DNA from: Flavobacterium sp. CYK-55
GTDB taxonomy: Bacteria > Bacteroidota > Bacteroidia > Flavobacteriales > Flavobacteriaceae
Length of the DNA stretch: 64,000 bases
NCBI RefSeq assembly: GCF_018413465.1
Contig: NZ_JAHCDK010000009.1
Span: 62,001-126,000, forward strand
Direction of reading: 5' to 3'
Shown here: positions 52,557 to 62,199 of the stretch, piece after piece
How positions within the stretch are numbered: position 1 is the stretch's first letter
Layout: each line of letters begins with the position of its first letter
Notes under the pieces: model-generated
What the model was told of the DNA's origin: nothing
Database searches by the model: none
Seen by the model: the letters and a program-made list of their open reading frames with translations, nothing else
Position numbers and translations under genes: made by a program

Positions 52557-52949
52557 ATGAACCTAGAAAGCCCAAAAGTAACTGTAGAAAAATCAGCACA
52601 AGAACTTTTTGATCAATTGACCGATGTCAAAAACTTTGAAAAACTGATGCCTGATAACATCGCTAAATTTGAATTGCTCGGCGAGGACACTTTTGTTTTT
52701 GGCTTGAAAGGAATGCCTGAAATTAAATTGCGTCTTAAAGAACAAGTAGCGCCCAACAAAGTTGTTTTGGGTGCTGCCAGTGATAAACTTCCGTTTTCGT
52801 TGACTGCTCAGATTGATGAGTTGGCTCCGGCACAAGCAGCGGTACAGTTATTTTTTGAAGGCGAATTCAATGCGATGATGGCTATGATGATCAAAGGGCC
52901 GATTAGCAAATTTTTAGAAACCCTAGCGCAAAACATGCCTAAGTTGTAA
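52557..52949 (+). CDS. SRPBCC-like small protein downstream of pyrE
   Basis: 130 aa. Alternating strand-helix pattern of the START/SRPBCC (Bet v 1-like) fold: ESPKVTVEKSAQELFDQLTD, KFELLGEDTFVFGLKGMPEI, RLKEQVAPNKVVLGAASDKL, FSLTAQIDELAPAQAAVQLFFEGEFNAMMAMMIKGPISKFLETLA. Commonly found after pyrE in flavobacteria; binding partner unknown. Probably in one transcript with pyrE. Confidence 0.85.
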   Translation: MNLESPKVTVEKSAQELFDQLTDVKNFEKLMPDNIAKFELLGEDTFVFGLKGMPEIKLRLKEQVAPNKVVLGAASDKLPFSLTAQIDELAPAQAAVQLFFEGEFNAMMAMMIKGPISKFLETLAQNMPKL

Positions 52950-53189
52950 ATGAATCAATTTTTAGTTTGGGTTACCCCAAAATTATTTAGGGCAAACTTG
53001 AGCAAACCACCACTTTTTACAATTGATTACCGACACATTTCAACGTTTCATCGTTTTTTTTGGTTCTATAACAGAATTTTTTTGCATCTCTAGGTGTTTA
53101 TAATTAATCTTGCCTAAGAATTATTTGATTAACAATCTGATAATGATTTATTAATCAATAACAAACTGGACAAGATAAACCCCGAATCT

Positions 53190-55604
53190 ATGCCAAAAAC
53201 AGACCAACAACTCAAAAACAACGACTGTGGTATCAGTGCCGTCAAGACAGTATTCAATATCTTTGAGAAGAACATCTCACGGAAGTATATTGAAGAAAAC
53301 ATTCCTTTGGACCAAAAAGGAACTCGTTTAACTGACCTCAAAACTTTCTTGAACGACCACGGCTTTGATGCCAAAACGCGCTTGCTTGATGTGAACTACA
53401 TTGATGGCAATGAAGCGTATTTGAATTATTTGTTTCCGTTTATCATGCCGGTGCGCCACAAAAACGGAACGCGCTTTATTGTAGTAAGCGAAATCAAAGG
53501 CCGCAAGTTTAAAGTGTATGACCCGAACAAAGGCAGCCAATATTATTTGTCTTTGGCCGAGCTCAAAAACAAAGCCATCAGCAACAAATCTGATTGGGAA
53601 GAAGCCGATGTTGAAGACCGCATCGTATCGATTTGTTCTGAAGATTTAAAAGATTATAAGATTAATTATACTGAAGCCATCCGTGAAAATGGTCACGCAA
53701 CGGTATTCAACAAACTCACCTATTTTAAATACCTTAAAGAAAATTTTGGTTTTAAAGATACCGCAGCCGAAAAAAGCTTTTTGGTAGACTTGCTCAAAAA
53801 CCAAGAAATTTCGAGTATCCCGAATAGTTTTAAAACTTTGGAGCTTGAAAAAGGCAAAATCAAAAACAAAGCACCGCAGATTTTGACGGTCAAGTCAAAC
53901 GAAGAAAAAGAAAAAGCGATTTCGTATCCTGAAGAAGTGCGCGGAAGCTTATACTGGCAGCTTTTCAAACAACTCGGTGACTACAAACAATTGTGGTACA
54001 TCTACATTTTTGCGGCTTTGTTCTCAGCAACTACCGCTCAAATTGCCGTGTTTACCAATCAGATTCTCATTGACAATGTCTTGCCAACATACAACATGAA
54101 TACGCTCATTTTGTTTGCGGTTGGTTTGGGTATTTACAAAGTATTTGACTTGTTTACGACTTTATATAAAAACTACGTGAGCATGCATTTGGGCAATGCG
54201 CTCGATCGATATTTCTTGTTTTCATTTGATGAGAAAATCAACAATTCATCATTGGCTTATATTCACTCGTACAAAAAAGGCGATTTGATGGAACGCGTGA
54301 GCGACTCCATGAAGCTCAAAACCTTCTTCATGAAATTCTTTACCGGAATTTTGGTTGATTTGAGCGTGTCGTTGTATTCGCTTTGCATCTTGTTCTTTAT
54401 TGACAAAATGCTCACCATGATTGTGGTGGTGGTGATGGTGATGTTTGTATTTTGGTTTAAATTCATTACGCCTTATCTCAAGCAAAATGAGCGTTTGCGC
54501 TACATTCGCAAGGCTGAATTCATTTCAAAAATGATGGAAAAGGTTGAGGGTATTCAAGTGATTAAAAGCTTTAGAATTGAGCGTTTTCACTCCAATAAAA
54601 TCTACTCGAGCATCAATGATTATTTGCGTATTCAGCTTAGAAACGGCTATGTAGATTTGATCAACAAAACCATCGTAGCGCTGATCATCATTTTTTCATC
54701 GGTATTGATTACGGTATTCTTAACCAAATCAGCCATTGAAACACAAATCATCACGCTTGGACAAATTGTTACTTTTATAGCTTTGTCATCTAAGATTTTC
54801 TCATCGCTCAAAGGCATTTTGGACGACAACATGACCTTGCAAGAAAACGAAGTTATTTTAAGACGTTATCTTGATTTTGATGAAATTACCCAACAAGAAG
54901 AAGGCAAAGGCATCAAAGATTTTGCGATTGACAAAATTGAATTTCAAAGTATTCACTACAGCTACATTCCGAACGAGCACGTTTTGAAAGACATCAATTT
55001 AAAGATGAAAAAAGGTGAGAAAATCAAGATTGAAGGTCAAAATGGTTCTGGAAAATCAACCTTCAGTAAAATCTTGACCACTTTGTATCGTCCTGATTCT
55101 GGTGCGATCTTGATCAACGGCCGAGACATTAAATTTTACAATGCCGAAAAAGTTCGCGAGAAGATTTTGCTGGTAACCAACGAAGACATTTTGTTCAACG
55201 ACACCATTTACAACAACATTGCTTTAGGCAAAAACATTGAGATTACGGATATTCTGGACCGCGCCAAAGAAATCAATTTCTATGATTTTATTGCCTCAAA
55301 AGAAGATGGACTTGAGTTCATCATCAACGAAAACGGTAAGAACTTATCAACCGGTCAGCGCAAAAAAATTCTGTTGCTCAGAGCTTTGTTTGCCGATACT
55401 GAAATTGTAATTCTTGATGAAGTGCTCTCGGGCATGGATATCGAATCAAGAAACAAAGTAGAAACGCTTGTAGATAATGACCAAGACAAAACCTATATTG
55501 TCATTTCACACGAGCCGATTAAAAACATCAACTTCACGAAAAAATACAAAATAACCAATGGAGAACTCTACATTTTACAACACGAAGTCGATCAATTTTA
55601 TTAA
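53190..55604 (+). CDS. C39 peptidase-containing ABC exporter (PCAT)
   Basis: 804 aa. The N-terminal C39 peptidase (1-145) has its triad: C13 in NNDCGIS, H90 in MPVRHKNG, D111 in VYDPNKG. Then a six-helix ABC transmembrane domain (about 270-540) and an ATPase: Walker A GQNGSGKS (~616), signature NLSTGQRKK, Walker B TEIVILDEVLSG and the H-loop VISHEP. Such proteins cut a double-Gly-type leader off a peptide and export the product. The substrate is not evident in the window. First gene of an export operon with HlyD and TolC. Start MPKTDQQLKNN is well supported by the C39 motif near the N-terminus. Confidence 0.93.
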   Translation: MPKTDQQLKNNDCGISAVKTVFNIFEKNISRKYIEENIPLDQKGTRLTDLKTFLNDHGFDAKTRLLDVNYIDGNEAYLNYLFPFIMPVRHKNGTRFIVVSEIKGRKFKVYDPNKGSQYYLSLAELKNKAISNKSDWEEADVEDRIVSICSEDLKDYKINYTEAIRENGHATVFNKLTYFKYLKENFGFKDTAAEKSFLVDLLKNQEISSIPNSFKTLELEKGKIKNKAPQILTVKSNEEKEKAISYPEEVRGSLYWQLFKQLGDYKQLWYIYIFAALFSATTAQIAVFTNQILIDNVLPTYNMNTLILFAVGLGIYKVFDLFTTLYKNYVSMHLGNALDRYFLFSFDEKINNSSLAYIHSYKKGDLMERVSDSMKLKTFFMKFFTGILVDLSVSLYSLCILFFIDKMLTMIVVVVMVMFVFWFKFITPYLKQNERLRYIRKAEFISKMMEKVEGIQVIKSFRIERFHSNKIYSSINDYLRIQLRNGYVDLINKTIVALIIIFSSVLITVFLTKSAIETQIITLGQIVTFIALSSKIFSSLKGILDDNMTLQENEVILRRYLDFDEITQQEEGKGIKDFAIDKIEFQSIHYSYIPNEHVLKDINLKMKKGEKIKIEGQNGSGKSTFSKILTTLYRPDSGAILINGRDIKFYNAEKVREKILLVTNEDILFNDTIYNNIALGKNIEITDILDRAKEINFYDFIASKEDGLEFIINENGKNLSTGQRKKILLLRALFADTEIVILDEVLSGMDIESRNKVETLVDNDQDKTYIVISHEPIKNINFTKKYKITNGELYILQHEVDQFY

Positions 55605-56787
55605 GATTCTCAATAAGATTCTTGTCGGGTTTTTGATTATTGTTGTAGTGTTAATTTTTGCCTTGCGGTTAAATGATACGGTAAGTTTTAAAGATGGACA
55701 GATTTATTCTGACACACCGCAAATCAAAATCAACACACCCAACGACGTCAAAGTCTTAAGAGTTTCGGTAAAAGAAGGTCAACAAGTACGTAAAGGCGAT
55801 ACCCTTTTTGTACTTGAAAATAAAAAAACACAGTCTGATTACAATGTGCTAAACACTGATTTGGCCTCAAAAGAAAACAAGGTCAAAATCATCAAAAAGC
55901 TTATTGCTAATACAACTGAACGCAAAAATGCACTCAAGCGATTGCTATCAATTCAAGCCGGAATTTACAAAACCGATCGCAGCAAAGCCGCAGCCGAGAT
56001 TGAAGCGCTCAACAACAAACTGAGCTTGTCATCACAGCAAACCAATATCTTAACCGATAAATACAAAACCGACTCATTGTTGTATGCCAAAGGTGCCATT
56101 TCACGCTATGAAATGACTGATACCAAAAACCGCAACCTCGATGTAAAAAAGGCTCAAGTTGACAATCGTTCGGTTTATAGCGTGAAAAATTTTGACTATC
56201 AGAATTTACACAACAATTATAAGCGTTCACGCAATGATTTGGAACGAAGTATTATTGATGTTGACAATGAATTACAAGGTTATCAACGTGATTTAGTTGA
56301 GCTTGAAACTGAAATTCAAGACGGTAAATACACCATGAATTATATGAGTGATGAGCTCAATAAATTGGTTGTTATTAGTCCGGTTGAAGGAACGATTTCA
56401 AACTTATACAATTCACGTCAGAATGTAGAAATTCTAGCAAAAGGCGATTTATTAGGAATCATTGCCCCGAAAAAAGAGAATTTCTATGCCAAAGTAACGC
56501 TCAACGAAAAAGACTTGGCTTACATTAAAAACGGTCAAGAAATCAACCTCAAACTCGATGCTTATAACTATTACCGATTTGGCGCCATTAAAGGCAAAAT
56601 CACTTATGTTTCGCCATCTGATGTAGATAGAACGTTTTATTGTTTGGCGGTAATCAAGAAATACAACCCAAACATTACACTCAAAGCCGGATACAAACTT
56701 AAAGGCGAAGTGATTATTGAGCGCATGCAATTGTATCAATACATCATCAAGAAATTATTTAACAAGATAGACAACAACATGAACTAG
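55558..56787 (+). CDS. HlyD-family periplasmic adaptor
   Basis: 409 aa. One N-terminal transmembrane helix (ILVGFLIIVVVLIFALRL, ~21-38), a biotinyl-lipoyl-like piece (VKVLRVSVKEGQQVRKGDTLFVLE), a long coiled coil (~85-260), and a barrel-like second half (VVISPVEGTISNLYN, ENFYAKVTLNEKDLAYIKNGQEINLKLD). Bridges the inner-membrane ABC exporter and the outer-membrane TolC. Its start lies 47 nt inside the transporter gene, so expression is coupled. Confidence 0.93.
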   Translation: MENSTFYNTKSINFIKILNKILVGFLIIVVVLIFALRLNDTVSFKDGQIYSDTPQIKINTPNDVKVLRVSVKEGQQVRKGDTLFVLENKKTQSDYNVLNTDLASKENKVKIIKKLIANTTERKNALKRLLSIQAGIYKTDRSKAAAEIEALNNKLSLSSQQTNILTDKYKTDSLLYAKGAISRYEMTDTKNRNLDVKKAQVDNRSVYSVKNFDYQNLHNNYKRSRNDLERSIIDVDNELQGYQRDLVELETEIQDGKYTMNYMSDELNKLVVISPVEGTISNLYNSRQNVEILAKGDLLGIIAPKKENFYAKVTLNEKDLAYIKNGQEINLKLDAYNYYRFGAIKGKITYVSPSDVDRTFYCLAVIKKYNPNITLKAGYKLKGEVIIERMQLYQYIIKKLFNKIDNNMN

Positions 56788-56791
56788 CCCC

Positions 56792-58120
56792 ATGAAAAAA
56801 TCTATTTTAATCATATTACTAACGCTGAGCAGTTCTGTTTTTTCGCAAGAAATGCTAACTTTTAAAGATTGTCTTGAACTAGCACTCAAAGAAAATCTCG
56901 ACATAAAAACGGCACTCAATGAGCAACAAATTGCCAAAATGCAATACCATTCAAGTTACGGCAAATTATTGCCCAATCTGTTTGGTAGTTTTGAAAACAA
57001 AAACTCTTGGGGACGCGATGTAGACCCGAACTCAAACTTGTTTATCAATACCGATATCAAATCGTATGTGGGTTATTTAAACGCTACTTATAATTTGTTT
57101 GCTGGATTTAATACAATCAATAATATCAAACTCAACAAAAGAGAATACAAAATCAGTCAGACCAATGTACAGAAAGTTGAAAACCAAGTAACCATTGAAT
57201 TGGCTGAACGATTTATCACAATACTATACTTGCAAGAAATTATCGCAGCCAATCAAAAACAGATTGAATCAAGCCAGAAGCAAATTGAAATGGCTGAACT
57301 AAAATTTGCTGCAGGTAGCATTGCCGAAAGTGAAGTTTTTAAAATTAAATCGCAAAAAGCCTCAGAAGAACTCAATTTATTGACCAATCAAAACAGATTG
57401 ACAGACAATATGGTCAACATCAAACAATTGATGAATATACCACTTGATAAAGAAATCATTTTGGTCAAACCTATCATGCAGTTAGACGAAAATGTCGATG
57501 TCAGTAATCCGTATGATTTGATTCATAAAGCTGTTGAAATCAATCCTTCGTATAACATCAGTAAAATGCGCGAGAAAAAAGCCAGAACAGCTTTGGCCAT
57601 TGCACGAGGTTCACGATATCCGGTGCTTTCACTTCGTGCCCAGTATGGCTCACAATACATCAAAACTGACTATCAAGATGACGAGGAAGATTTGCTCCCG
57701 TTAGACGAACAGCTCCGAAACAATGAAGTGAACATTTTTAGAATTAATTTGGTAGTGCCTATTTTTAGTCAATTGGATAATCGAACAAAAATCAAGACAT
57801 CAAAAACACTTTACAAGCAATCAAAAATTGATACACAAATCAAACGCAATGAGCTTTCTAAAGAGGTTATGCAAGCTATTACCGATACCAAAACTTCGAT
57901 TAAGAAAAAAGAAGCATCTTCTATTGCCTATGAATTCTCTCAAAAAAGCTATGATGCCGATGCATTAAAATTTGAACTAGGCAAAATCAACATCAATGAA
58001 CTGAATTTAACCAAATCAAACCTCAATAATTCTGAGGCCCAACTCATTCAGTCAAAATATGAGTTGATGTACAACAACGCACTCATTAAGTTTTATCTGG
58101 GTGAAAAGTTTAATCTTTAA
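56792..58120 (+). CDS. TolC-family outer-membrane channel
   Basis: 442 aa. Signal peptide 1-18 (ends SVFSQ). Two homologous halves rich in coiled-coil helices (LTFKDCLELALKENLDIKTAL, LAERFITILYLQEIIAANQKQI, ELNLTKSNLNNSEAQLIQSKYELMYNN) with short barrel strands between (KSYVGYLNATYNLFAGFNT, VNIFRINLVVPIF). Typical outer-membrane efflux protein. It completes the ABC-HlyD-TolC export line; 4 nt after the adaptor. Confidence 0.93.
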   Translation: MKKSILIILLTLSSSVFSQEMLTFKDCLELALKENLDIKTALNEQQIAKMQYHSSYGKLLPNLFGSFENKNSWGRDVDPNSNLFINTDIKSYVGYLNATYNLFAGFNTINNIKLNKREYKISQTNVQKVENQVTIELAERFITILYLQEIIAANQKQIESSQKQIEMAELKFAAGSIAESEVFKIKSQKASEELNLLTNQNRLTDNMVNIKQLMNIPLDKEIILVKPIMQLDENVDVSNPYDLIHKAVEINPSYNISKMREKKARTALAIARGSRYPVLSLRAQYGSQYIKTDYQDDEEDLLPLDEQLRNNEVNIFRINLVVPIFSQLDNRTKIKTSKTLYKQSKIDTQIKRNELSKEVMQAITDTKTSIKKKEASSIAYEFSQKSYDADALKFELGKININELNLTKSNLNNSEAQLIQSKYELMYNNALIKFYLGEKFNL

Positions 58121-58153: not shown

Positions 58154-60172
58154 ATGATGTCTGCCCAAAATATCAATAGATTTTACTTTTTCTTTTTGGC
58201 TTTGATGCCATTGATTTACGACCAACATAGAATTGTTGATCCTACGGTTGCGCCGCGACTTTTGTACCTATGCTTGTTTCTTTGTTTAGCTGTTTTTTTG
58301 CTGCACAAATCTCAAATCAAGACCATTGACAATTTATTTAAATCTTCATTTTTCTATGCGATTTTTGCTTTTTTAGGCTCGCTATTATTGAGCACAATAG
58401 TAAATGGTTTTAACCCTGAAAATCACGCAACTATAGCAAAATGGATGGCTTCAAGTGTTTTTCTGGTTGTGGTTTCGATAGAATTATATCAAGAAAGATT
58501 AAGCTTTAAAACATTAGTAAACGGTATTACGGTATTTTTCGGGTTGGCTGTTTTAGGAGCTTATTTTGATGTCTACCAAATGATGCAAAACTCAAGTTCA
58601 ATCTTGAAGCATATGAGTGAAATCAAAAGCTTTTTTGGCAATAAGAATCTTCTTTCGTCTGCGTTGTTTTTGTGTGTGCCGTTTGTTTTGATTTCAAGTC
58701 AACATAGTCCGAAACAGCAATTAATATCCAGACTGTTGTTATTGTTGAGCATTCCTATTTTGCTCTTAACGCAAACCAGAGCTGTTTGGTTGGCTTTTTT
58801 TGTTTTTATATTGGTAATTGGGTTTTACAAGCTAAAGTCAAATCTAGCAACAAAAGCAATTTTATTCGTTGGTATTTTGGCCCTAGGTTTTTCAATTTCT
58901 GAATTTATTTTACCCAAGTTCAGAGCCATAAAAGACGATAAATTTTCAAATATTTACCTTTCAAAACTGGGCAATCAAAATACGCTCAACAGTAGAAACA
59001 TATATTGGGAAAGTGCCTATAAAATGTGGCAAGAACAACCAATTTTTGGTATTGGCCCAGGTAATTTTGGCCAGTTATTTTCAGCCTACAATACAAACAA
59101 AATGTCTGTTGAAATGGCCAACGGAACAGAAACATTACAAAGGGTTCACAATGATTTTCTGAGCATATTAGCCGAAAGTGGTTTATTGGGATTTTTGTCT
59201 TTTATGAGTATTTGGATTTTGACCATTTATTGGGCCGTACAACTAATCCAACAAGCAACTGAAAAAACCGAAAAATCAACCTATTTGTTCTTACTAGCCG
59301 GATTATTAGGTTTTGCAGTGATTGTTTTTTTAGATTTTCCGTTTGAGCGAATTGAACATCAACTGATTTTTGTCACAATTATAGCTTTTATATTTGTCTG
59401 GTCATTTAAAAAGAAAAAAAAACAAACCAAAAGTTTAAAGAAATCAGATGTTGTTATAGTGCTGACTTGTTTCATCATATACGCAACAACAGTAGCAGCT
59501 ATGCGCTTGATGAGTGAAATTCACATGATGAAAGTTTATCAGGCCAAAGCCCAAGGCAATTGGAGTGAAGTTATTTACGAAGCTAAAAAAGCCAGAAATT
59601 CATTTTATCAACTTGATCCAACTGGTATTCCGGTAGAATGGTATCAAGGAATTGCTTATTTTGGACAAGGCGAACTCGAGCAAAGTCAAGCATCATTTGA
59701 ATCTGCTTTTAAGGCGTCACCATATCAGGTACAAGTTCTACACAACTTAGGGGCTGTTTACGAGCAAAAAAAAGAAATTGACAGTGCGATGATTTATTAT
59801 CAAAAAGCACTGGAAATTTCACCAGCTTTTGAAGAAGCACTTTTGAGTTTATCAGCTTGCTATTACAAAAAAGGAAGATACCAACAAGCATTTAACACTA
59901 TTGAAAAAGTTGAGCCCAAATCAAAAAACAAGCGTTATCGCCCTTATCTTGCTAAGATTTTGGTAAAAAAACTCAACTCAATTTTAGCCAAAATGAACCA
60001 ACCCACATTGTCTGGCTTTATGGCTAAAGAAATGAATAGTGTTGAAAAAATAAACAATTTTTATTGGGTTGCCAGAGCACATAAAGTAAATCTTGAAAAA
60101 CAAATCATACTTCAGAAGAAATCGGCTGACTACTATTGGTACGAACGTTCAGTAAAGTTAGCGCATAAATAA
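58154..60172 (+). CDS. O-antigen ligase-like (Wzy_C) membrane protein with C-terminal TPRs
   Basis: 672 aa. About 12 transmembrane helices in the first ~430 residues. The ligase motif is in the big periplasmic loop: SRNIYWESAYKMWQEQPIFGIGPGNFGQL and HNDFLSILAESGLLGFLSF. The C-terminal part has TPR units (WYQGIAYFGQGELEQSQASF, VLHNLGAVYEQKKEIDSAMI, LLSLSACYYKKGRYQQAF). Wzy_C proteins attach O-antigen to lipid A core or, in PglL relatives, glycans to proteins; the exact role cannot be chosen. Its 3' end overlaps the opposite-strand gene by 68 nt. Confidence 0.88.
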   Translation: MMSAQNINRFYFFFLALMPLIYDQHRIVDPTVAPRLLYLCLFLCLAVFLLHKSQIKTIDNLFKSSFFYAIFAFLGSLLLSTIVNGFNPENHATIAKWMASSVFLVVVSIELYQERLSFKTLVNGITVFFGLAVLGAYFDVYQMMQNSSSILKHMSEIKSFFGNKNLLSSALFLCVPFVLISSQHSPKQQLISRLLLLLSIPILLLTQTRAVWLAFFVFILVIGFYKLKSNLATKAILFVGILALGFSISEFILPKFRAIKDDKFSNIYLSKLGNQNTLNSRNIYWESAYKMWQEQPIFGIGPGNFGQLFSAYNTNKMSVEMANGTETLQRVHNDFLSILAESGLLGFLSFMSIWILTIYWAVQLIQQATEKTEKSTYLFLLAGLLGFAVIVFLDFPFERIEHQLIFVTIIAFIFVWSFKKKKKQTKSLKKSDVVIVLTCFIIYATTVAAMRLMSEIHMMKVYQAKAQGNWSEVIYEAKKARNSFYQLDPTGIPVEWYQGIAYFGQGELEQSQASFESAFKASPYQVQVLHNLGAVYEQKKEIDSAMIYYQKALEISPAFEEALLSLSACYYKKGRYQQAFNTIEKVEPKSKNKRYRPYLAKILVKKLNSILAKMNQPTLSGFMAKEMNSVEKINNFYWVARAHKVNLEKQIILQKKSADYYWYERSVKLAHK

Positions 60173-61466
60173 ACGAAGGCGCGGCCAATCGCATTCCTGA
60201 ATGAGCAATAGTCAATAGCCAAAACAAATAAAAACTCCAAAAGTAGAGGTTCTGAGTGTTTTTATAATTTATTAAGATGGGAAGAATAAGCAATACCAAA
60301 AACGAACCCAAACCCAACAATCCGTGTTCGGCTAGTAAACGTGTAATTTCGTTATGAGACGAAACAGTTTCACCAAAATAATTCTGGCTATTTTGGATTC
60401 CTTTGCCCACTCCAACGCCAAAAACAGGCGCTGATTTAAAAAGTTTTAGCTCATAACTCATCAAGTGTTGGCGATCTATTTTTGAAGCATCACTCTTATC
60501 AGACAAACCCACCAGAATGGCATAGCGCTTTATAATAAATCCATCGCTTTGGAAAGTTAAAAATACAGTTGCTATGGCCGCTAAACCAACTGCTATTTTT
60601 AACTTTTGCCTAATTTCATCAGAATAAGCGCTGGACCGAAAAATTTGAAAAACTAAAATAGTACAAATAATAAGCCCAGTAATCATTCCACCACGTGAGA
60701 AAGTTAACATACATCGGTAAAAAATGTACGTCATCAACAAAAAATAAACAACACTATATATTAGAGACAGTTGTTGAACCAATATGCGCCCGAATATAAT
60801 AAACACACATAGTCCGAGTACCGTAGCCATTTGATTGGGACCAAAATTTCCTGTAAATAAAAAGTTTGATTCCATATTGTAATAAATCTCTTTGACATCA
60901 GGATAATCTAATATTAAAAAAGAAATACAAGATGTTACCGGCAACAAAAACAAAAACAATATGTTTTGTAATTGATCCATATTTATTTGCTTTTCACAAG
61001 TATAAACTGAGGCAATTACTGTAACTAATGGTCCAATTAAAACAAATACATAATGAATATCTTGAACAATTACTGAGGAAAAAAAACTAATCAAAAAACC
61101 GGGGATTAAAAGAATCAAGCTCAGAAAAAACCACCTTGTTTTTTGATTAAAACCGCTGTAAAACAATCCCAACACAAAAAACAACATTACACCATAGCGC
61201 CCATATTCATAGAGCAAATTGCCTCGTGTCATGCGCAGAAAAATTTCGGCACCTGCCAAATAAGACACCATTTCAAGCACTTGATTTTTTTGGTTCTTGG
61301 CAAGGATAATATAAATCAATCCAAAACTTAACAAAGCAACACCGTATGCTATAGAGAGCCAATGAAAATAATAAACCAACAAACCCAACAAAGAATGCAG
61401 CAGCAAAAGAAAAAGTTTTTTGTTTTCTGCTTTGTTGGAATTTACTGCAAATTGAGATATAATCAT
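60105..61466 (-). CDS. O-antigen ligase-like (Wzy_C) membrane protein
   Basis: 453 aa, about 12 transmembrane helices and no TPR tail. Ligase loop: YELKLFKSAPVFGVGVGKGIQ ... VSSHNEITRLLAEHGLLGLGSFLVLL with the family His. Distant paralogue of the gene it faces (58154-60172), with which it overlaps tail to tail by 68 nt. Follows birA by 7 nt, suggesting a shared transcript. Confidence 0.88.
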   Translation of the reverse strand: MIISQFAVNSNKAENKKLFLLLLHSLLGLLVYYFHWLSIAYGVALLSFGLIYIILAKNQKNQVLEMVSYLAGAEIFLRMTRGNLLYEYGRYGVMLFFVLGLFYSGFNQKTRWFFLSLILLIPGFLISFFSSVIVQDIHYVFVLIGPLVTVIASVYTCEKQINMDQLQNILFLFLLPVTSCISFLILDYPDVKEIYYNMESNFLFTGNFGPNQMATVLGLCVFIIFGRILVQQLSLIYSVVYFLLMTYIFYRCMLTFSRGGMITGLIICTILVFQIFRSSAYSDEIRQKLKIAVGLAAIATVFLTFQSDGFIIKRYAILVGLSDKSDASKIDRQHLMSYELKLFKSAPVFGVGVGKGIQNSQNYFGETVSSHNEITRLLAEHGLLGLGSFLVLLILPILINYKNTQNLYFWSFYLFWLLTIAHSGMRLAAPSFIYALTLLNVRTNSSQPISSEV

Positions 61467-61473
61467 GAATGGT

Positions 61474-62199
61474 TTAAAAGATCATCTGTACTTCTTTGAT
61501 GTCAAAATCAAATATGCCATCATCAGATTGAATGAGCAACTTTCCGATAGGATTAATACCTATAATGCTGCCTTCAAAAACAAAGTCATCCTTTTTTTTG
61601 AATAACATTTTTTGATGAAGCTTGAATAACGAAGATATATATTCCGGTTTAAAAAAATCTTTTTTTTCTGACCAATTGGTCACATTAGCTTTGAATTGAA
61701 TTATTATTTCATACATCAATTCAACAATATCATAGTCAAGCCCGGTAGCTAGTACCAAAGACGAAGCTTGAGGCAAATGGTTAAAATTCTTTTGATTAAC
61801 ATTAAGGCCTAAACCAACAACCGACAGAATTTCATTTTCAGATTTAAAACTGTTTTCAATGAGTATTCCGCCAATTTTCTTATTTCCTGACATAATGTCG
61901 TTGGGCCATTTGACAGTGACATCAGGTATTTTATTTCTTTTTAGAACTGATAAAACAGCCAATGAAAAAGCCATGTTTAAATCAAAAACCAAGGTAGCAT
62001 CAATCAAAAAATCCTTAACCAATATACTCATTATAAGATTTTTACCTTTCTCTGAAGCCCAAACCGAACCCATTTGACCCCGACCGTTGGTTTGCTCATC
62101 AGCAGATACAACAGTAAAGTTGTCCACTTGTTCTTTACGGATTAAATCCTTTAGAAAATTATTGGTTGAGTCAATGGCATCGAGTTTGACAAGGCGCAT
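61474..62199 (-). CDS. birA: Biotin--[acetyl-CoA-carboxylase] ligase
   Basis: 241 aa single-domain biotin protein ligase without the DNA-binding helix-turn-helix, so it is not a repressor. Biotin/ATP motifs: DEQTNGRGQMGSVWASEKGKNLIMSILV, VKWPNDIMSGNKKIGGILIEN, VVGLGLNVNQ, and a C-terminal barrel (GSIIGINPIGKLLIQSDDG). Adds biotin to carboxylase carrier proteins. Start MRLVKLDAIDSTNNFL. Confidence 0.95.
   Translation of the reverse strand: MRLVKLDAIDSTNNFLKDLIRKEQVDNFTVVSADEQTNGRGQMGSVWASEKGKNLIMSILVKDFLIDATLVFDLNMAFSLAVLSVLKRNKIPDVTVKWPNDIMSGNKKIGGILIENSFKSENEILSVVGLGLNVNQKNFNHLPQASSLVLATGLDYDIVELMYEIIIQFKANVTNWSEKKDFFKPEYISSLFKLHQKMLFKKKDDFVFEGSIIGINPIGKLLIQSDDGIFDFDIKEVQMIF

Follow-up and report, generated by a model that had tools for sequence, protein, structure and literature searches.

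A three-gene export operon in Flavobacterium sp. CYK-55

We analysed a stretch of 64,000 nucleotides (hereafter the window) from Flavobacterium sp. CYK-55, positions 62,001 to 126,000 of contig NZ_JAHCDK010000009.1 (assembly GCF_018413465.1), in a host genome of 3.15 Mb that is 99.9% complete. It carries an operon for a tripartite exporter, whose ATP-binding cassette (ABC) transporter bears an N-terminal C39 peptidase domain with arginine in the column of the catalytic histidine. All three genes lie head to tail with open frames, and their open reading frames (ORFs) and Pfam families agree with a preliminary description of this DNA made from the letters alone. That description had both downstream genes follow with overlaps; the adaptor gene does overlap the transporter gene, by 47 bases, but the TolC-type gene begins 4 bases past the adaptor end. 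The operon and the parts of its transporter are as follows.

53190..55604, plus strand: C39-domain ABC exporter, 804 amino acids (ORF list; Pfam ABC_membrane, ABC_tran and Peptidase_C39)
55558..56787, plus strand: HlyD-type periplasmic adaptor, 409 amino acids (ORF; Pfam HlyD_3)
56792..58120, plus strand: TolC-type outer-membrane channel, 442 amino acids (ORF; Pfam OEP, 5.8e-46)
Transporter residues ~1-126: C39 domain, with Q7, C13, D111 and R95
Transporter residues ~127-254: extra stretch, helical for the most part
Transporter residues ~265-560: transmembrane domain (TMD)
Transporter residues ~583-804: ATPase (nucleotide-binding) domain

The transporter matched Peptidase_C39 (PF03412) with 57.6 bits at a cut-off of 22, and also PF00664 and PF00005. 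None of its 25 best NCBIfam matches reached the cut-off; the best, a peptidase-domain ABC transporter model, scored half of it. The protein is ~60-90 residues longer than canonical C39 exporters of Flavobacterium, whose open frames run to ~717-747, and the extra length sits between the C39 domain and the TMD, where residues 126-234 matched no Pfam family up to an E-value of 1 and had one PHROG match at 0.11. The ATPase motifs are in place (Walker A at 616, LSTGQ at 719, ILDE at 741, SHE at 773). Two departures from consensus are nearly invariant across the exporter family: LSTGQ at residues 719-723, where LSGGQ is the usual signature, and VTNED at the Q-loop (residues 661-666), which usually has Gln.

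Arginine occupies the catalytic histidine column

In the available excerpts, the catalytic His and Asp are given as H105 and D121 for CvaB (PMC3335142), H101 and D117 for LahT (PMC6363468) and H96 and D112 for ComA (PMC8277102), a spacing of 16 residues each time. Sixteen residues ahead of D111 in the window's transporter stands R95, and H90 lies 21 ahead; as the catalytic spacing places R95 there, H90 is not the equivalent of the catalytic His. Alignment of the solved ComA and LahT domains to the transporter put the catalytic His of both in column 95, and a profile alignment placed His at column 95 in nine of nine canonical C39 proteins of the genus and Asp at column 111 in eight of the nine. 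The profile scan took in 42 loci, and the nine that aligned were all canonical C39 loci of the genus (L094, L096-L099 and L102-L105); for L095 and L100, which lie outside the profile re-alignment, His95 comes from a first alignment alone, in which L094, L098, L102 and L105 had been unaligned and L097, L101 and L103 misplaced. Residue 90, five upstream of 95, varies among His, Asn, Ser and Arg in relatives that have a real His95.

The canonical Gln7 and the catalytic Cys13 and Asp111 are kept, and the residue 16 before the Asp is Arg in place of His. Judged from these alignments, the general base of the C39 site is missing. The preliminary description had read an intact triad C13, H90 and D111, in which the Cys and Asp are canonical and the His is misassigned. 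AlphaFold models, one of residues 1-258 and one of the whole protein, had mean pLDDT of 51 and 41, unusable for active-site geometry.

A single replacement separates two groups of exporters

We compared ten distinct genomes with Arg95 (R95) with ten sister genomes with His95 (H95), the groups being defined by that residue. F. lotistagni CYK-4 is of the R95 type, and F. psychrotolerans and F. luteum are H95 sisters. The comparison was made without duplicate copies of the same genome, L092 (Cys lost), L093 (N-terminus absent) and the genomes G506 and G612, which likewise have His95. Across positions 1-235, residue 95 was the sole fixed difference between the groups. Residue 94 separates them by sets, being Leu or Met in the ten H95 genomes and Thr, Ser or His in the ten R95 genomes. 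A tree of 26 rows grouped the R95 rows together, with the change from His to Arg as one event. A possible second loss event in the exporter family is seen at L092 (G182:C147), from a metagenome-assembled, 65%-complete genome, which has Gly at the catalytic Cys and keeps His95.

In the window's branch, purifying selection on the C39 domain is strong. Its ratio of nonsynonymous to synonymous substitution (dN/dS) was ~0.05 (0.024/0.51) between the window and L032 and ~0.07 (0.039/0.57) between the window and L033, similar to the ~0.05 (0.026/0.479) of the H95 pair L041/L042; for the TMD it was ~0.01. TMD identity exceeded ATPase-domain identity in all 15 comparisons that include the window, which share one row, and in three of four other family pairs (18/19 in total); among other ABC exporters the same held for 75 of 157 pairs. 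With the TMD as the best-conserved section of the transporter, a single conserved cargo, probably shared by all members, seems more likely than a varying bacteriocin.

No precursor was found for the exporter

A scan for short intergenic ATG-started ORFs with a double-glycine (GG) leader returned none in the window between 6 kb before and 11 kb after the transporter start, in line with the earlier statement that no such precursor lies nearby. The same scan was run on 11 canonical C39 stretches (7 genomes) and 22 stretches of the exporter family (21 genomes), and found GG leaders beside 6/11 of the former versus 0/22 of the latter (Fisher p 0.0004, kinship ignored). Loci L246 and L177 provide examples of GG leaders in the genus. 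Some stretches were one-sided or short (L043, L045, L248 and L175), and the scan is blind to long leaders of the NHLP type, such as those of L239, whose precursors lie ~12 kb off. The preliminary view of an orphan exporter is thus supported and extends to the whole family. A looser scan, which accepted GG, GA or GS, any start codon and gene overlap, gave 28 weak matches in family loci, apart from a real precursor at L177; three of the 28 ended in GG, all TTG-started, and none of these passed the stricter scan.

The preliminary description had proposed a genome-wide leader search. We ran it for GG leaders with the motif ExxxZxGG (Z being Ile, Val or Met), GA and GS leaders and other residues at -8 falling outside the motif. 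The window's own genome gave 63 matches versus 48 in the reversed control, and none of the 63, all read in context, was judged a plausible precursor. The motif recovers seven of the ten leaders found by the stricter scan, and the genome-wide negative is therefore meaningful, yet incomplete. Eight matches lay in short closed frames with the start 12-45 codons ahead of the GG (62 counted, one repeat being merged), and six of these eight were mostly overlapped by longer open frames. The other two of the eight were L140, a 136-residue protein that we take to be OsmC-like, and L136, whose core would be 5 residues; L135, where the GG stands near the end of a longer, presumably ExbD-like frame, was rejected too. 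With Arg for the catalytic His and no plausible GG precursor recognised genome-wide, the earlier picture of a maturation system processing a leader is unsupported for the window's genome.

The family models for such leaders gave negatives that are weak taken alone: TIGR01847 matched 0/13 genomes, with a control signal in Lactococcus only; PF10439 matched 1/15, G612 only and below the cut-off, and missed a likely G112 precursor that the stricter scan had found; TIGR03793 (NHLP leader) matched 1/18 exporter genomes, G612 only, and was silent in 14/14 controls. G612, an H95-type exporter genome, has seven NHLP-leader precursor matches (L201/L202, G612:C1, ~1113000-1118300) and also its own canonical C39 exporter ~12 kb from them. 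Repeats-in-toxin (RTX) proteins, searched for with PF00353, were found in 0/15 exporter genomes and in 2/14 control genomes.

The transporter is the sole Pfam C39 match in its genome, as in six of the seven R95 genomes searched (G247 has two), and a precursor tied to another C39 exporter, the result that the preliminary description had named as refuting its reading, is therefore unlikely. The intergenic region upstream of the transporter held no small precursor ORF common to relatives. It does contain a partly conserved non-coding block across the family (window ~53020-53130), ahead of the transporter start codon. The block pattern, searched in nine genomes as a lead to co-regulated cargo, had matches in four, with the window's own block unmatched by it; its lone non-exporter site (G343:C8:28939-28968) stands in one genome, ahead of a 222-residue protein with a signal-peptide-like start.

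The exporter occupies a fixed place in one clade

The surroundings of the operon in the window are:

52557..52949, plus strand: left border, a small SRPBCC/CoxG-like gene, the usual upstream neighbour by synteny
52950..53189, plus strand: intergenic leader/promoter region with the partly conserved non-coding block
58154..60172, plus strand: O-antigen-ligase/tetratricopeptide-repeat (TPR) gene (Pfam), 33 bases downstream of the TolC-type gene

The coxG-like name is a tentative one, backed by weak sub-threshold Pfam matches. The ligase/TPR gene is an optional neighbour, since only some relatives have it. The usual gene order among relatives is pyrE, coxG-like, exporter, birA, rsfS, ftsH, with another left border in L041 and L042 and another right border in L039. 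Among twelve genomes of the genus that have no exporter, the coxG-like gene directly adjoins birA in eight (L183, L184, L187, L188 and L190-L193), is separated from it by ~1 kb in two (L185, L186) and was not seen within the flank in two (L189, L194).

The exporter family was present in 18 of the 398 Flavobacterium genomes sampled, the window's own included (18 family-level among 32 matches), and in 4 of 296 sampled genomes of the order, all four Flavobacterium (1 of 90 genera). A tblastn check against plasmids, made to see whether the operon has a plasmid origin, gave, for the best 5000 records among the matches listed, identities all below 60%. Most simply, the operon entered the interval between the coxG-like gene and birA a single time and has since passed by vertical descent within one Flavobacterium clade. 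We read the exporter as an old chromosomal fixture of that clade, gained once; loss elsewhere is also possible.

Several observations concern the neighbourhood itself. The gene at 58154-60172 (plus strand) and a gene at 60105-61466 (minus strand) are both O-antigen ligases (Wzy_C), one with TPR repeats; they converge with a 68-base overlap, are absent from many relatives and diverge fast, with 39-48% identity to their counterparts in L032 and L033, where most neighbouring genes are >90% identical. birA (61474-62199, minus strand) is unusually variable, at ~49-68% identity among relatives in which its neighbours are highly conserved, rsfS for one at 94-100%. In the distant members L038 (6488-9811) and L176 (7420-10088) a bacteriophytochrome kinase gene lies directly upstream of the exporter, accompanied by a heme-oxygenase gene in L038 and by a candidate one in L176. 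Two contigs, L037 (titled Bifidobacterium breve) and L044 (Sphingobacterium thalpophilum), have the locus in its typical Flavobacterium form, and the assemblies look mislabelled or contaminated.

A proposed non-cleaving receptor and its alternatives

With a probability of roughly 0.55, we interpret the operon as a substrate-orphan tripartite exporter that is inherited vertically and in which the C39 domain has become a non-cleaving receptor. The domain would no longer cut in the window's branch and would dock and position cargo, a role comparable to that of the C39-like domain of HlyB. The cargo is best read as encoded elsewhere and as something other than an RTX protein or a classical GG precursor, and conservation of the TMD suggests that it is a single, conserved one. 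Such a cargo would bind the docking domain, pass through the TMD driven by ATP and leave, uncleaved, by the adaptor and the TolC channel; the extra stretch between the C39 domain and the TMD is, as a guess, a candidate contact element for cargo or adaptor.

Several points weigh against this interpretation. The branch uniting all R95 rows is poorly supported (SH-aLRT 61), and the pair L035/L040 has its ATPase domain above its TMD (0.97 vs 0.95). Cys13, Gln7 and Asp111, which a pure receptor does not need, are retained in all ten R95 genomes, a weak counterpoint, because 73 of the 126 C39 positions are invariant in these genomes. The lost activity is read from sequence, the models being too poor for checking the geometry; the GG-leader family models are insensitive; and linked, genome-wide and RTX searches found no cargo.

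The neighbouring histidine is a further such point. H90 and Cys13 are both invariant in the ten R95 genomes, and H90 could in principle act: on a neighbouring strand it might replace the lost His in a rearranged, active site, and the exporter would then mature an unlinked GG peptide that the motif missed. Both poor models give residues 84-90 and 93-103 as strands, in which 90 and 95 could adjoin, and the motif overlooks three of the ten known leaders. The invariance of H90 is, however, not special, since of the 76 positions variable among the H95 genomes 34 do not vary among the R95 genomes, and a swap of the His to H90 was unsupported beyond chance in this comparison. Some H95 members also have H90, which therefore did not arise as compensation, and neither the genome-wide motif nor the family models yielded a plausible precursor; we consider an active protease unlikely. 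Still less probable is the intact maturation system of the preliminary description, with the triad C13/H90/D111 and its substrate elsewhere. C13 and D111 are indeed present with no precursor nearby, and with H95 such a system may well exist in the sister species, but here the alignment contradicts it at column 95.

The exporter might instead carry a lipid, a glycan or a drug-like molecule, with the C39 domain as an ancestral remnant in a structural role. The 0/22 family stretches with a precursor would suit such a cargo, as would the O-antigen-ligase gene directly downstream in several R95 genomes. That gene is missing from other members, though, the compared H95 relatives retain Cys, His and Asp, and the strong purifying selection on the C39 domain fits a remnant badly, which makes a non-peptide cargo rather improbable. 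Decay of the operon as a relic on its way out could explain the loss of the catalytic His, and of the Cys in L092, but it is scarcely credible given three open frames, the ATPase motifs and dN/dS values of ~0.01 and ~0.05 for the TMD and the C39 domain, which argue strongly against it.

Comparison with known systems

The transporter shares with peptidase-containing ABC transporters (the PCAT/AMS systems, such as CvaB, ComA and LahT) the architecture of C39 domain, TMD and ATPase domain, the residues Q7, C13 and D111 and the DPxxG motif, and, as in colicin V export, which uses an HlyD-type adaptor and a TolC-type channel, its operon encodes both partners. It differs in having Arg for the catalytic His, in its greater length, with an extra stretch (residues 126-234 checked) that matches nothing in Pfam up to an E-value of 1, in having no linked GG precursor found and in its vertical descent at a single locus. 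Cleavage of GG leaders, a trait of these transporters, has probably been lost. In the window's own genome, TIGR03793 matched no leader precursor of the NHLP/NHLM peptide system.

With HlyB-type exporters of RTX proteins the operon has in common a C39 fold, presumed not to cleave, as part of an ABC/HlyD/TolC exporter. As far as the excerpts of PMC8277102 go, HlyB-type C39-like domains have lost the Cys, HlyB retains the His, and the cargo class is RTX proteins. The window's exporter is the reverse: it keeps the Cys, as do all ten R95 genomes, and loses the His, in a family where 15 exporter genomes yielded no RTX protein. HetC of Nostoc is likewise a C39 exporter for which no precursor is known, and it carries an extra domain on its N-terminal side, but by the part of its description available (PMC10986499) it keeps Cys and His, shows protease activity and has no nearby gene for a membrane-fusion protein, and so differs in the His and in the adaptor gene of the operon. 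C39-like domains that lack protease activity are known and, in the excerpts of PMC8277102, PMC10986499 and PMC6363468, are described as Cys-less; a figure legend in PMC3335142 names "family C39 non-peptidase homologues". Among the open-licence PMC titles listed (up to 15 per search), we found no account of a His-less, Cys-bearing C39 exporter or of this Flavobacterium operon, though one may exist. The operon may represent a third kind of naturally arisen non-cleaving C39 exporter, with the Cys kept, the His lost and a cargo that is neither a GG precursor nor an RTX protein, although we hold this with less than even confidence.

If the receptor interpretation is correct, the H95 sisters, which have this operon at the corresponding locus, would offer a natural before-and-after experiment in the conversion of a peptidase domain into one that only receives cargo, in this case a single conserved cargo unlinked to the operon. 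The case also warns that a C39 site which has been disabled may pass for intact when another His stands close by. In the excerpts seen, the shift from peptidase-containing to non-cleaving exporters has so far been described from remote cases that lack the Cys, HlyB among them. In the present family one catalytic replacement separates sister species that have the same operon in the same place, so that whether the domain must cut to export becomes testable in an ordinary Flavobacterium.

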